The notes under the pieces are model-generated. The model searched no databases. It was not told the DNA's origin and saw only the letters and a program-made list of their open reading frames with translations. From assembly GCF_013408425.1 (NCBI RefSeq), contig NZ_JACBYV010000001.1, positions 1,178,001-1,242,000 on the forward strand: 64,000 nucleotides of DNA. The letters run 5' to 3'. The position numbers and the translations under genes are program-made. Below are positions 16,990-22,008 of this stretch, piece after piece (position 1 is the first letter of the stretch; each line of letters starts with the position of its first letter). This DNA comes from Pseudomonas flavescens. GTDB lineage: Bacteria > Pseudomonadota > Gammaproteobacteria > Pseudomonadales > Pseudomonadaceae.

Positions 16990-17925
16990 TCAGGCGCTCG
17001 CCTCGCTCATCCATTTCGGTTTCGGATAACGGCGTTCTGATGTGCCGGCCTTGAGGATCGCACCCGGCACGTCGTGGCCGATCAGGTCGGGCAGGGTGGC
17101 AGCGGCGGCCAGCAGGGCATCCAGATTCACACCGGTATCCAGGCCCATGCGCTGGAACATGTGCACCAGATCTTCCGTGCAGATATTGCCGCTGGCGCCC
17201 GGCGCATAGGGGCAGCCGCCGAGCCCGCCGAGCGATGCGTCGAAGCGGTCGATACCGGCGTTCAGCGCTGCCAGGGCGTTGGCCAGGCCCATGCCACGGG
17301 TATTGTGAAAATGCGCGGTGAACACCGCCTCGGGCCAGCGCTGCAGCGACTCGCGACAGATGCGTTCGACCTGGGCGGGATCGGCCATGCCGGTGGTGTC
17401 GCAGAGGGTCACGCCCTGCACGCCGAGATCGAGCAGGCGCTGGGTCAGCTCATGGACGCGCACCTCGGGCACCGCGCCCTCGAAGGGGCAGCCAAAGGTG
17501 GTCGACAGCGAGGCGTTGATGAACACCGCGCTGCCGCGAGTGACCTCGATGATCTCGCGAAACTGCGTCAGGGACTGTTCCGGTGTCATGCGCAGGTTGG
17601 CCAGGCCGTGGGTGTCGCTGGCCGACATCACCAGGTTGATCTCGTCCACCTGGCACGAAAGCGCCCGCTCGCAGCCGCGCACGTTGGGTACCAGCACGGT
17701 GTATTCCACCCCGTCGACACGCTGGATGCCGCGCATCACTTCTTCGGCGTCGCGCAGGTTGGGGATCGCCTTGGGCGAGGTGAACGAGGTGACTTCGATC
17801 TTCGCCAGGCCGGTCTGCGACAGTTTGTCGATGAGGGCGATCTTGGCTTCGCTCGGCACGAAGGCCGCTTCGATCTGGAAGCCGTCACGGGTGGCGACGT
17901 CCTGGATATAGAGGCGTTTGGTCAT
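16990..17925 (-). CDS. HMG-CoA-lyase-family enzyme, candidate (R)-citramalyl-CoA or HMG-CoA lyase
   Basis: 311-aa DRE-TIM metallolyase of the HMG-CoA lyase family. Catalytic positions are kept: Arg13-Asp14 (TRDGFQIE), Glu44 in KIEVTSF, His205/His207 in HFHNTRG, and Cys238 in GGCPYAPGASGN. HMG-CoA lyases normally read RDGLQNE where this has RDGFQIE, hinting at a changed acyl pocket. It lies 3' of a class III CoA-transferase gene on the same strand, 267 bp apart. No leucine-degradation genes are nearby. A CoA-transferase plus this lyase type is the pair known for (R)-citramalate (Sct/Rcl of Chloroflexus). HMG-CoA cleavage is the main alternative. The start at 17925 matches the family N-terminus. 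Confidence 0.87.
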   Translation of the reverse strand: MTKRLYIQDVATRDGFQIEAAFVPSEAKIALIDKLSQTGLAKIEVTSFTSPKAIPNLRDAEEVMRGIQRVDGVEYTVLVPNVRGCERALSCQVDEINLVMSASDTHGLANLRMTPEQSLTQFREIIEVTRGSAVFINASLSTTFGCPFEGAVPEVRVHELTQRLLDLGVQGVTLCDTTGMADPAQVERICRESLQRWPEAVFTAHFHNTRGMGLANALAALNAGIDRFDASLGGLGGCPYAPGASGNICTEDLVHMFQRMGLDTGVNLDALLAAAATLPDLIGHDVPGAILKAGTSERRYPKPKWMSEASA

Positions 17926-17997
17926 GGTGAGATCCTGATTATGTCGGTGCGTAGCATGGGTATCGCCGCGCTCAACCCAGGCTACGGGCTGCGGCTC

Positions 17998-18173
17998 GTA
18001 GGGTGGATCGGGGCACGTAGCTGATGCTTCATCCGTCCACCACAGCGATTGCATGTAAGAGGCTGGCCAAGCTTCCTTCGCTCTGCGGCACATTTGGTGG
18101 ACAAGCTCCGCGTTGTCCACCCTACGAATCCGTTGTGGCGTAGGGTGGATGGCGTTTTATCCATCCACCGTTA
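17998..18173. repeat. Tandem palindromic repeats, GTAGGGTGGA family
   Basis: Three related arms occur: GTAGGGTGGATCGG near 17998, GTTGTCCACCCTACG near 18112, and CGTAGGGTGGATGG...ATCCATCCACC to 18173. They fill the 267-bp gap between the second CoA-transferase and the lyase, where no gene is seen. Confidence 0.65.
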
Positions 18174-18192
18174 CAGGGCATGTCGGGATTTC

Positions 18193-19398
18193 TCAGATAA
18201 TCCCGCGCTCGCGCAGGCCCTTGACCTGCTCGTCGCTCAGGCCCAAGCCGGCCAAGACGTCATCGGTGTGTTCGCCGAGCTGCGGGCCACCTTCGCCGAT
18301 GCGGCCTGGCGTGCGGCTGAGTTTCGGCAGCACGCCCGGCACTTTCAGCGGGCCGGCGCTGGTGCTTACCGTCTCGATCATCTGCCGGGCCAGGTAATGG
18401 GGGTCGCTGACGATATCGGCGGCGGTGTAGGGATAGCCCGCCGGCACCCGCGCGCCCTTGAGCGCGTCGATCACCTCATCGCGGCCGCGCTGGGCAGTCC
18501 ATTCGCCAATGGCGGCATCGATCATCTCGGCGTGCTGGCTGCGCCCGTCGTTCTGCGCCAGGCGCGGATCGTCGGCCAGATCGGTGCGGCCGATCAGGTT
18601 CATCAGACGCTTGTAGATGCTGTCGCCATTGCCGGCGATCAGCACGTAGCTGCCGTCGTTGCACGGGTAGGAGTTGGAGGGCGTGATACCGGGCAAGGCG
18701 CTGCCGGCCGGTTCCCGCACGTAACCGAAGGCATCGTATTCGGGCACCAGGCTTTCCATCATCGCGAACACCGATTCGTACAGGGCGACGTCGATCTGCT
18801 GGCCCTGGCCGCTGTGGTTGCGCTCCTGCAGGGCGAGCAGTACGCCGATCACCCCATACAGCGATGACAGCGAGTCGCCGATGCTCACCCCGACCCGCAC
18901 CGGCGCCTGGCCGGGGTAGCCGGACAGGTGGCGCAGGCCGCCCATGGCTTCGCCGATCACGCCGAAGCCTGGTAGGTCGCGGTAGGGGCCGGTCTGCCCA
19001 TAGCCGGAGATGCGCAGCATGATCAGCCGCGGGTTGATGCGTGACAGTTCGTCCCAGCCCAGGCCCCATTCCTCCAACGTGCCGGGGCGGAAGTTCTCCA
19101 CCAGGATGTCGGCTTCGGCGACCAGGCGGCGGACGATGTCCTGGCCTTCGGCTTCCTTGAGGTTGAGGGTCAGCGACTGCTTGTTGCGTGACTGCACGTG
19201 CCACCAGAGCGAGGTGCCGTCCTTGATCTTGCGCCATTTGCGCAGCGGGTCGCCGATACCTGGCGGTTCGATCTTGATCACCTCGGCACCGAACTCGCCG
19301 AGCATCTTGCTGGCGAACGGGCCGGCAATCAGCTGGCCCATTTCGATGACCTTGAGCCCGGCCAGGGCCATGGGTGTAACGGTTGAGTCGACAGACAT
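18193..19398 (-). CDS. Second class III CoA-transferase (CaiB/BaiF), substrate unassigned
   Basis: 401-aa class III CoA-transferase. GLKVIEMGQLIAGPFASKMLGEFGAEVIKIE is the family N-terminus. The catalytic Asp is Asp175 in VSIGDSLSSLYGVIGVLLAL. RISGYGQTGPYRDLPG is the middle signature. The ATG at 19398 gives a family-length protein, and the 24 codons further upstream run into the divergent promoter. It pairs with the HMG-CoA-lyase-type gene downstream and is divergent from a LysR gene. It would make the CoA ester that the lyase cuts. Succinyl-CoA:(R)-citramalate transferase is the leading guess; other hydroxy- or dicarboxylates are possible. Confidence 0.88.
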   Translation of the reverse strand: MSVDSTVTPMALAGLKVIEMGQLIAGPFASKMLGEFGAEVIKIEPPGIGDPLRKWRKIKDGTSLWWHVQSRNKQSLTLNLKEAEGQDIVRRLVAEADILVENFRPGTLEEWGLGWDELSRINPRLIMLRISGYGQTGPYRDLPGFGVIGEAMGGLRHLSGYPGQAPVRVGVSIGDSLSSLYGVIGVLLALQERNHSGQGQQIDVALYESVFAMMESLVPEYDAFGYVREPAGSALPGITPSNSYPCNDGSYVLIAGNGDSIYKRLMNLIGRTDLADDPRLAQNDGRSQHAEMIDAAIGEWTAQRGRDEVIDALKGARVPAGYPYTAADIVSDPHYLARQMIETVSTSAGPLKVPGVLPKLSRTPGRIGEGGPQLGEHTDDVLAGLGLSDEQVKGLRERGII

Positions 19399-20506: not shown

Positions 20507-20597
20507 TCGCCCTCGGCGCTGCAGTAGAGTTCGTCGCGAACAAAGGCATCCGGCAGGGCACTGACCCGCCGCACTAACAACAACAGGAGATCGCCTC

Positions 20598-21602
20598 ATG
20601 TCCCGCCTACTCTCGCGCAGCTTGTCCTGCGTGCTGCTTTCCACCGCCATGGCCTTCGGCGGCGCCGCGCAGGCGGAAGAAATCGTCATCAAGTTCGCCC
20701 ACGTCGCTTCCGACCAGACGCCCAAGGGGCAGGGCGCGCGCATGCTGCAGAAACTGGTCAAGGAACGCCTGGCGGGCAAGGCGCGCGTGGAGGTGTACCC
20801 GAACTCTTCGTTGTTCGGCGATGGCAAGGAGATGGAGGCGCTGTTGCTCGGTGACGTGCAACTGCTGGCGCCTGCGCCGGTGAAGCTGGAGAAGTATCAG
20901 CCACGGGTGCAGATCTTCGATCTGATGTTCCTGTTCGACAACGCGGCTGCGTCCCAGCGTTTCGAGCAGTCGGCCAAGGGCCAGGAGTTGCTGCACAGCC
21001 TGGAGAACAACGGCATTCTTGGCCTGGCCTACTGGCTCAACGGCATGCGTCAGTTCACCGCCAACAAGCCACTACATGTGCCGAGCGACGCCCGGGGCAT
21101 GAAATTTCGCGTGCAGCCTTCGGACCTGCAGGCCGCGCAGATCAGTGCGCTGCGTGCGGTGCCGCGCAAGATGGCCTTCGCGGAGATCTATCAGGGCCTG
21201 CAGACCGGGGTGATCAACGCCTCCGACAACCCCTGGTCGAACATCTACAGCCAGCGCCATTATGAAGTGCAGCAGTACATGATCGAATCCAACCATGCCG
21301 TCGGCAACTACATGCTGATCACTAACGCGGCATTCTGGAACGGCCTGCCAGAGGATGTGCGCGGAGAGCTGAAAACCATCATCGACGAGGTCACCGTCGA
21401 GGTGAATCGCCAGGCGCTGGCGCTCAACGAGAAGGACAAGGAGCAGATCCTGGCCAGCGGCAAGCATGAGCTGATCACCCTCAGCGACGAGGAGCGGGCC
21501 CAATGGCGCGAAGTCATGCGGCCGATCTGGAAAGACTATGAAGGGAAGATCGGCAGCGACCTGATCGAAGCGGCCCAGGCTGCCAATGCTGCCGCCAACT
21601 AG
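20598..21602 (+). CDS. dctP: TRAP transporter substrate-binding protein DctP (copy 2)
   Basis: 334-aa periplasmic TRAP binding protein with a signal peptide (about 1-26, ...GGAAQAEE). It shares with copy 1 at 10082 the blocks [47 protein letters not shown] and IYQGLQTGV. The pocket-side NASDNPWSN differs from NGTENTWSN in copy 1, which fits a related but different ligand. A VOC gene follows 13 bp later, then a REP element and the DctQ/DctM genes. Confidence 0.93.
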
Positions 21603-21615
21603 AACGGAGACCGCC

Positions 21616-22008
21616 ATGCTCGACCATCTTGATCATCTGGTACTGACCGCTACCGACGCCGATGCGACCACGCACTTCTATGTCGAGGTGCTGGGCATGC
21701 GCCTGGAGACCTTCGGCAATGGCCGCAAGGCGTTCTGCTTCGGTAATCAGAAGATCAACCTGCACGTGCGTGGCCAGGAGTTCGAGCCCAAGGCTCACCT
21801 GCCGGTGCCGGGTGCGCTGGACCTGTGCTTCATCGCCAGCCAGCCTCTGGAAGAGGTGATCGCGCATCTGCAGCGAGTCGGCTGGCCGATCATCGAAGGA
21901 CCGGTGATGCGCACCGGCGCCACGGGTCCGATCCGTTCGGTGTACCTGCGCGACCCTGACCTGAACCTGATCGAGATAGCTGAGTTGGTCGGGCAGCGGA
22001 ACGTGTAG
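21616..22008 (+). CDS. VOC/glyoxalase-family protein
   Basis: 130-aa vicinal-oxygen-chelate protein, the counterpart of PA0880. Two beta-alpha-beta-beta-beta modules are seen. Likely metal ligands are His in LDHLVLT (residue 7), His in INLHVRG, and Glu in LNLIEIAEL near the C-terminus. The ATG at 21616 has a GAGACC upstream and gives the family N-terminus. Annotations of relatives as ring-cleaving dioxygenase or lactoylglutathione lyase are unproven. In this setting an epimerase or a detoxification role for a keto-acid or CoA product is possible. Confidence 0.85.
   Translation: MLDHLDHLVLTATDADATTHFYVEVLGMRLETFGNGRKAFCFGNQKINLHVRGQEFEPKAHLPVPGALDLCFIASQPLEEVIAHLQRVGWPIIEGPVMRTGATGPIRSVYLRDPDLNLIEIAELVGQRNV

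Follow-up and report, generated by a model that had tools for sequence, protein, structure and literature searches.

The 64,000-nucleotide stretch of the Pseudomonas flavescens genome analysed here (the window; contig NZ_JACBYV010000001.1, positions 1,178,001 to 1,242,000) carries two gene blocks: itaconate genes at 3.0-11.1 kb (block 1), and a second block (block 2) that begins with the gene for a lyase of the 3-hydroxy-3-methylglutaryl-coenzyme A (HMG-CoA) lyase fold and extends through the transporter gene DctM, to 24240. Block 2 is probably a catabolic module for a C5 hydroxydiacid of the (R)-citramalate configuration. It appears to mirror the neighbouring Ict/Ich/Ccl operon, to which the (S)-citramalyl series would fall. 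Its main substrate in this genome is most likely (S)-itatartarate, an assignment that we advance tentatively. The substrates and reactions that we infer for the window's own proteins are drawn from gene content, fold, catalytic residues, phylogenetic separation, gene neighbourhoods and substrate geometry, which could be established directly. The host genome (5.95 Mb) is a single contig whose close relatives at the protein level are Pseudomonas seleniipraecipitans, flavescens and argentinensis. Loci from other genomes are designated by L numbers.

Gene content of block 2 and the proposed route

All genes that a preliminary description of the sequence had named between 17 and 22 kb were confirmed in an open reading frame (ORF) and Pfam check. 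The interval that it delimited, 16990..22008, holds real genes; the VOC gene at its end, the most telling one as to function, had gone unmentioned, and the block runs on to 24240:

16990..17925, minus strand: lyase of the HMG-CoA lyase fold, 311 residues, ATG start; proposed (S)-itatartaryl-CoA/(R)-citramalyl-CoA lyase
18193..19398, minus strand: class III CoA-transferase (CaiB/BaiF), 401 residues (PF02515, 422 bits); proposed succinyl-CoA:itatartarate/(R)-citramalate CoA-transferase
19577..20506, plus strand: LysR2 regulator (PF00126/PF03466), start set at the ATG at 19577
20598..21602, plus strand: DctP2, TRAP substrate-binding protein (PF03480, 328 bits)
21616..22008, plus strand: VOC/glyoxalase-fold protein, 130 residues (PF00903, 34 bits); proposed 2-hydroxyparaconate lactonase
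22328..22960, plus strand: DctQ, TRAP small permease (PF04290)
22957..24240, plus strand: DctM, TRAP large permease (PF06808, 427 bits)

The lyase and CoA-transferase genes are divergent from LysR2-DctP2-VOC-DctQ-DctM, and DctP2 and VOC are probably co-transcribed because only 13 bp separate the DctP2 stop from the VOC start codon. In the route that we propose, DctP2/DctQM would import the acid or its lactone, and the VOC protein would open the fungal lactone (S)-2-hydroxyparaconate to (S)-itatartarate. The transferase, through Asp175, would then move CoA from succinyl-CoA onto the carboxymethyl carboxylate to give (S)-itatartaryl-CoA, which the lyase would split into acetyl-CoA and hydroxypyruvate in a retro-Claisen reaction. 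Two enzymes whose genes lie outside the block, a D-2-hydroxyacid dehydrogenase and a glycerate kinase, would convert hydroxypyruvate to D-glycerate and pass it to glycolysis. (R)-Citramalate is a possible co-substrate in the same active site, yielding acetyl-CoA and pyruvate. Elsewhere in the genome are a 45% homologue of the dehydrogenase found in the relative locus L080 and a PF02595 glycerate kinase; the MOFRL-type glycerate kinase (PF05161) had no match in the genome.

The lyase and the CoA-transferase form a conserved pair

The class III CoA-transferase and the HMG-CoA-lyase-fold lyase are a conserved pair. One scan of genome contigs with the lyase returned 80 loci, in 77 of which a transferase lies within 2.5 kb of it; the exceptions are L030, where LeuCD sits between the two genes, and L066 and L084, which have no transferase match. 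The window's transferase, the second of class III in the window, keeps Asp175 (in GDSLSSLYG, counted from the ATG at 19398), as had been described. It scored under the cut-off of each of the seven NCBIfam models listed, and a 91% homologue (P0145) bears a source name legible only as 'Succinyl-CoA--D-cit...'.

In the lyase, the described residues R13, D14, H205, H207 and C238 are all in place; together with E44, N247 and E251 they do not vary across an alignment of 25 sequences. In HMG-CoA lyases the metal is held by Asp14, His205 and His207 (window numbering), with Arg13 and Cys238 assisting, and these residues would play the same parts in the window lyase. The motif RDGFQIE, which the preliminary description had set against RDGLQNE of HMG-CoA lyases, is present, but it is not diagnostic. 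As a substrate signature it was rejected, because neither the F nor the I is fixed in the clade alignment: L also occurs in place of F, and N, S or M in place of I. Those lyases in the alignment whose gene is directly followed by a VOC gene carry N or S instead of the I. The NCBIfam model PRK05692, 'hydroxymethylglutaryl-CoA lyase', matches the protein at 334.8 bits against a cut-off of 246, a name that applies at the subfamily level and not to the substrate.

The window lyase lies outside the leucine-pathway HMG-CoA lyases tested. In a tree built by a quick method, rooted at the midpoint and containing several long branches, with the solved structures 6NDS, 1YDO and 2CW6 as references, a 124-row group including the window lyase was split from the human and B. 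subtilis enzymes and from the second HMG-CoA lyase of the same genome (SH-like approximate likelihood ratio test, SH-aLRT, 100). The preliminary description had held that its reading would fail if the lyase grouped firmly inside the leucine-pathway enzymes and cut only HMG-CoA; on the side of phylogeny, the tree places it in a separate group. Fold and catalytic residues are common to the window lyase and leucine-pathway (S)-HMG-CoA lyases (PA2011/2FTP was compared by fold only), whereas the human and B. subtilis enzymes tested form a distinct clade and the window lyase is paired with a CoA-transferase. The nearest solved structure, 6NDS, is an A. baumannii 'HMG-CoA lyase' whose title names CoA and 3-methylmalate, a C5 hydroxydiacid; it lies in a different side clade from the window lyase.

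The pairing itself is already known from Chloroflexus, whose Sct and Rcl (EC 2.8.3.20 and 4.1.3.46) we take to be a class III CoA-transferase and an HMG-CoA-lyase-fold lyase. Likened by type, the window pair shows the same adjacent genes with the catalytic residues kept, and the same substrate configuration is expected. Unlike Sct/Rcl, it sits with LysR and TRAP genes, a lactonase-like VOC gene and an itaconate operon, and its proposed substrate is itatartarate and its product hydroxypyruvate. An (R)-citramalate-type pair, as first proposed, is plausible on the evidence of the conserved gene pair, the fold and the stereochemistry, but itatartarate fits the VOC and dehydrogenase context better; the original interpretation is thus partly supported. 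The succinyl-CoA:(R)-citramalate CoA-transferase and (R)-citramalyl-CoA lyase reactions are given in excerpts of PMC8307300.

Neighbouring blocks for two proposed mirror-image series

The Pfam matches agree with the itaconate block noted earlier at 3-11 kb, with its LysR, CoA-transferase, CitE-type lyase and DctP. L100 in the following list is a locus with the P. aeruginosa gene order:

3020..3916, minus strand: LysR1 of the itaconate block, ATG at 3916
4045..4872, plus strand: itaconyl-CoA hydratase (Ich)-like protein (PF13452), first gene of the operon, positioned as in the L100 cluster
5036..6199, plus strand: acyl-CoA dehydrogenase (Acd), methylsuccinyl-CoA dehydrogenase-like (PF00441/02770/02771)
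6354..7706, plus strand: MmgE/PrpD protein, methylsuccinate isomerase (Msi)-like (PF03972/PF19305)
7784..8989, plus strand: itaconate CoA-transferase (Ict)-like protein (PF02515), 80% identical to that of L100
9130..9954, plus strand: (S)-citramalyl-CoA lyase (Ccl)-like protein of the CitE fold (PF03328), 68% to L100
10082..11077, plus strand: DctP1, TRAP substrate-binding protein (PF03480), 71% to L100

Ich, Acd, Msi, Ict and Ccl stand together in one block 1 operon in the L100 order, minus its VOC, DctQ and DctM. The paralogy noted between the blocks holds for DctP1/DctP2 (57% identity) and LysR1/LysR2 (44%); CaiB and Ict are 33% identical. Compared with the P. aeruginosa PA0878-PA0886 itaconate/methylsuccinate cluster, which includes RdoPA and IctPQM, block 1 has the Ich, Acd, Msi, Ict, Ccl and DctP genes, and block 2 has DctQ (51% to L100), DctM (79%) and a relative of RdoPA. 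The VOC and DctQM genes of the window are therefore found apart from block 1, alongside DctP2 and the CaiB/lyase pair. Excerpts of PMC12290011 give an itaconate/methylsuccinate cluster whose content matches block 1, and the P. aeruginosa cluster is also treated in those of PMC12599236. Scanning of the ORFs in the itaconate block found no DctQ or DctM there, only DctP1, so that across both blocks (10082-11077 and 20598-24240) one DctQ/DctM pair stands against two binding proteins; this sole membrane pair may serve both.

A geometric Cahn-Ingold-Prelog (CIP) calculation, with priorities entered by hand, placed (S)-HMG-CoA, (R)-citramalyl-CoA, (S)-itatartaryl-CoA and (S)-2-hydroxyparaconate in one spatial arrangement, and (R)-HMG-CoA and (S)-citramalyl-CoA, the latter belonging to the Ict/Ccl series, in its mirror image. 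According to excerpts of PMC6689899, (R)-HMG-CoA is cut by two enzymes of the CitE type, Rv2498c and PA0883, of which Rv2498c acts on (S)-citramalyl-CoA as well, and (S)-HMG-CoA is cut by PA2011. Taken together, this geometry and these specificities imply that the opposite series needs an enzyme of the HMG-CoA lyase fold, and by the geometry the natural (S)-2-hydroxyparaconate leads into the (R)-citramalate-configured series.

The VOC protein is a relative of RdoPA

The window VOC protein, the one match to its own sequence in the genome, is 62% identical to the RdoPA-type (PA0880-type) VOC of L100. The latter is RdoPA or very near it, as we conclude from the P. aeruginosa gene order of L100 and from matches to published PAO1 primer stretches of 18-20 bases (five of six exact, the sixth with one mismatch); it has 126 residues here against 127 for RdoPA in the paper. 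In a 54-row VOC alignment, the columns at least 98% conserved form the motifs DH, N.H, EFEP, RTGA and RDPD.NLIE, common to both clades described below. The DH, N.H and NLIE columns, which presumably hold the VOC metal ligands, are common to the window and L100 proteins.

The tree of these 54 rows divides into two clades (split 100/99). One groups the proteins that itaconate operons, those of Stutzerimonas among them, encode at the PA0880 position; the other contains the window protein, the rows lying with a lyase, several stand-alone copies and the L088 protein, whose gene directly follows DctP1 in an itaconate operon in a genome with a best lyase match of 36%. The expectation that every close VOC relative would sit with itaconate or lyase genes was abandoned, as several stand alone. 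At L090 and L092, two of the five stand-alone loci with scanned neighbours, the window-clade VOC gene lies beside a LysR gene and is perhaps a unit for detoxification of 2-hydroxyparaconate only.

As reported in excerpts of PMC9875883, RdoPA opens (S)-2-hydroxyparaconate to itatartarate, a strain without RdoPA failed to grow on itaconate in a mixture with 2-hydroxyparaconate, and P. putida carrying the PA cluster builds up itatartarate and other products as a dead end, the same products being found in PAO1. A P. aeruginosa-like genome (G118) is without a window-type lyase (best match 36%), which agrees with the reported itatartarate dead end.

Lactonase-type and dehydrogenase genes accompany the pair in many related modules

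In a family of 279 genomes around G505, Burkholderiaceae by inference since the G505 lyase shares 95% identity with one from B. cepacia, the limits used gave a lyase in 174 genomes, a VOC in 92 (93 matches) and the D-2-hydroxyacid dehydrogenase in 67 (78 matches). Among the matches listed, 70 of the 93 VOC genes lie within 2 kb of a lyase. The dehydrogenase is found within 6.5 kb of 35 of the 70 lyases with a VOC gene versus 2 of the 80 without one (150 lyase rows among the matches listed), and one of those two has a VOC gene about 12 kb away. The Fisher p value for this association of dehydrogenase with VOC is 2.4e-12, which ignores relatedness and is therefore overstated. Hydroxypyruvate had been set down as the expected lyase product before the neighbouring dehydrogenase was identified.

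The VOC gene directly follows the lyase in 11 loci from Burkholderia relatives and from pseudomonads of the P. putida/reactans/canadensis type. At L080, an operon of the Pseudomonas sp. MIACH type, and at L075, a D-2-hydroxyacid dehydrogenase gene comes next, with one for a dicarboxylate or MFS transporter behind it; L080 additionally carries itaconate genes. A group of genomes of about 2 Mb (g51) has a VOC gene within 2 kb in 19 of its 26 lyase genomes; the small genomes at L132, L133 and L148 hold transferase, lyase and VOC genes together. Gene order in the lyase/VOC modules varies between groups, which argues for function and not for inheritance of one arrangement. The presence of both VOC and dehydrogenase in many relatives fits itatartarate, which would give hydroxypyruvate, better than citramalate, which would give pyruvate.

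The window's own family was sampled in 248 genomes under looser limits (lyase identity at least 52%). The lyase occurs in 81 genomes, the VOC in 92 and both in 59, where 30 would be expected if the two were independent. The direct arrangement DctP2-VOC-DctQ is found in the window and at L010-L012. Itaconate genes adjoin in 18 of the 29 pseudomonad loci L005-L033, the others including loci cut by contig ends, and at several Stutzerimonas loci the VOC gene lies inside the adjoining itaconate operon.

Alternative front ends of the module

Across 132 lyase loci, some of them shorter copies of the same genomes and with the own-genome loci L003, L085 and L114 left out, a lactonase gene lies within 8 kb of the lyase in 40 and a LeuC-type gene within 4 kb in 12; none has both and 80 have neither. 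Six of the 40 (Stutzerimonas-type) are counted only through a VOC gene inside an adjoining itaconate operon. A dehydrogenase lies near 17 of the 40 lactonase loci versus 7 of the 92 others, and 5 of those 7 combine distant LeuC-type genes with weak dehydrogenase matches (31-35%). The 12 LeuC-type loci comprise 6 in which both LeuC and LeuD match in full at 59% or above and 6 with a weak LeuC match only (28-30%).

LeuCD acts on citraconate/(R)-citramalate. At L030, L055, L062, L073, L101 and L159, LeuC/LeuD genes lie beside or inside the transferase-lyase pair, and Cupriavidus necator pBB2 has the order transferase-lyase-LeuC-LeuD; the LeuC/LeuD loci are likely the citraconate/(R)-citramalate version of the module. 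Because a close relative, L030, is of the LeuCD type, the lyase/transferase family has at least two front ends.

An SMP-30/gluconolactonase gene is present in the module at L156 (10835-11842), L157 (6970-7980), L078 and L145, with or without a VOC gene. SMP-30 may represent another lactonase family serving the same function, joining or replacing VOC in some operons. On Caballeronia zhejiangensis p3 the genes run LysR, transferase, lyase, SMP-30/gluconolactonase, MFS, VOC, dicarboxylate symporter and D-2-hydroxyacid dehydrogenase. The corresponding stretch of Paraburkholderia caribensis plasmid 2 contains the SMP-30 and dehydrogenase genes but lacks a VOC gene, one being present elsewhere on the plasmid. 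The region on Pantoea sp. Nvir plasmid 2 is of neither the lactonase nor the LeuCD type. L034 and other Halomonas loci combine the pair with its own TRAP set, a FAD-linked oxidase, an enolase-superfamily protein and an HpaI-type aldolase. A glycerate/pyruvate kinase pair suspected beside the Halomonas clusters was discarded when the genes proved to encode the FAD-linked oxidase and the enolase-superfamily protein.

Weighing the candidate substrates

Several observations weigh against itatartarate as the main substrate. In the window's family, none of the 92 VOC matches lies within 2 kb of the lyase, 3 (one of them the window) lie within 6 kb and 25 within 15 kb, these 25 being mostly linked through the adjoining itaconate operon; 22 genomes have the lyase only and 33 the VOC only. 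The window VOC belongs to a clade sister to that of RdoPA and not inside it, and several of its close relatives (75-89%) stand apart from both itaconate genes and the lyase. In the lyase tree the window protein is closer to the Halomonas clade than to the Burkholderia lyases with VOC, and no lactonase was found beside the Halomonas-clade lyases in the loci scanned. Overall, 92 of the 132 lyase loci are without a lactonase within 8 kb, and L030, with a lyase 84% identical to that of the window, has LeuCD rather than a lactonase. No dehydrogenase gene lies beside the window block, the name 'hydroxypyruvate reductase' for the relatives' dehydrogenase was not diagnostic by NCBIfam or PDB comparison, and the genome counts are not phylogenetically independent. 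The loose lyase-VOC linkage in the window's family lowered our confidence in itatartarate and raised that in (R)-citramalate.

The strongest competitor, which we consider rather unlikely, is an (R)-citramalate/citraconate module that yields acetyl-CoA and pyruvate, with the VOC protein incidental or only detoxifying 2-hydroxyparaconate to protect the itaconate pathway. The HMG-CoA lyase fold has the right stereochemistry for it, and the LeuC-type genes at 12 of the 132 loci, L030 included, and on C. necator pBB2 show the company it would keep. The mostly non-adjacent VOC and lyase genes in the window's family are what a separate detoxifier would lead one to expect, and in excerpts of PMC9875883 P. 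putida with PA0878-PA0883 used neither (R)-citramalate nor citraconate. However, the lactonase and LeuC types never occur together (40 versus 12 of the 132 loci) and the window is of the lactonase type, and in the G505 family the dehydrogenase tracks VOC, whereas pyruvate needs none.

Another lactone-forming hydroxydiacid, such as hydroxycitrate or its lactone, is improbable; it would be cleaved to acetyl-CoA and an oxidised tartrate-like 2-oxoacid for the dehydrogenase to reduce. Such a substrate would accommodate the association of the pair with two lactonase-type families and a 2-hydroxyacid dehydrogenase, as well as the position of the window VOC outside the RdoPA clade. The itaconate operon adjoining the window block, as at 18 of 29 pseudomonad loci, speaks against such a substrate, and the window-clade VOC in the L088 itaconate operon ties the clade to itaconate-derived C5 acids.

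It is very unlikely that the pair serves to break down 3-hydroxy-3-methylglutarate, with the lyase as a second (S)-HMG-CoA lyase: the PRK05692 match above cut-off, the configuration shared with (S)-HMG-CoA and the transferase's PDB relatives 9BR7 and 9BR6, named succinate--hydroxymethylglutarate CoA-transferase, agree with it, but the clade is separate from the human and B. subtilis enzymes and from the genome's own second HMG-CoA lyase, and the lactonase relative, the itaconate genes and the relatives' 2-hydroxyacid dehydrogenase are neighbours that HMG does not need.

Flanking genes

Between the two blocks (11168-16799) lie a nitroreductase gene and a MarR-OEP-HlyD-MFS efflux set. The blocks of L010 and L011 are separated likewise by a nitroreductase and efflux set, and those of L012 similarly but without a nitroreductase match; at L005-L007 the lyase directly adjoins DctP1 of the itaconate operon. 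Because of this direct junction, the efflux set looks either to have been gained between the two modules or to have been lost there. Right after DctM, on the opposite strand, is a gene for an EAL-domain protein with a CSS-motif domain (24328-25875), and at 26119-28080 lies the gene for an AcsA-type acetate--CoA ligase, whose Pfam make-up recurs near the block in 18 of the 80 contig-scan loci. A search of four intergenic regions, in itself a weak test, for a LysR operator common to both blocks found no inverted repeat with perfect 6-bp arms (gap 3-8).

Implications

Searches of the open-licence literature found no bacterial itatartarate route described in the titles and abstracts retrieved, no mention of itatartaryl or itatartarate-CoA among the matches listed, and no paper joining a citramalyl-CoA or HMG-CoA lyase, a CoA-transferase and (R)-citramalate; PMC11626831, in the excerpts at hand, treats production. 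With slightly more reserve than for the substrate itself, we suggest that these genes may encode a bacterial pathway that makes a food of the antimicrobial 2-hydroxyparaconate, which fungi derive from itaconate, comprising a lactonase, an itatartarate CoA-transferase, an itatartaryl-CoA lyase and a hydroxypyruvate reductase and present in pseudomonads, Burkholderia relatives and a small-genome group. It would fill the step at which P. aeruginosa reaches a dead end, and would be a mirror-image twin of the itaconate pathway with a front end that can be swapped between lactonase and LeuCD. In competition between fungi and bacteria, itaconate and its fungal derivatives may serve as weapons. If the proposal is true, some bacteria consume the counter-weapon through a dedicated itatartarate route, and many generically named pairs of a CoA-transferase and a 'hydroxymethylglutaryl-CoA lyase' would gain a function.

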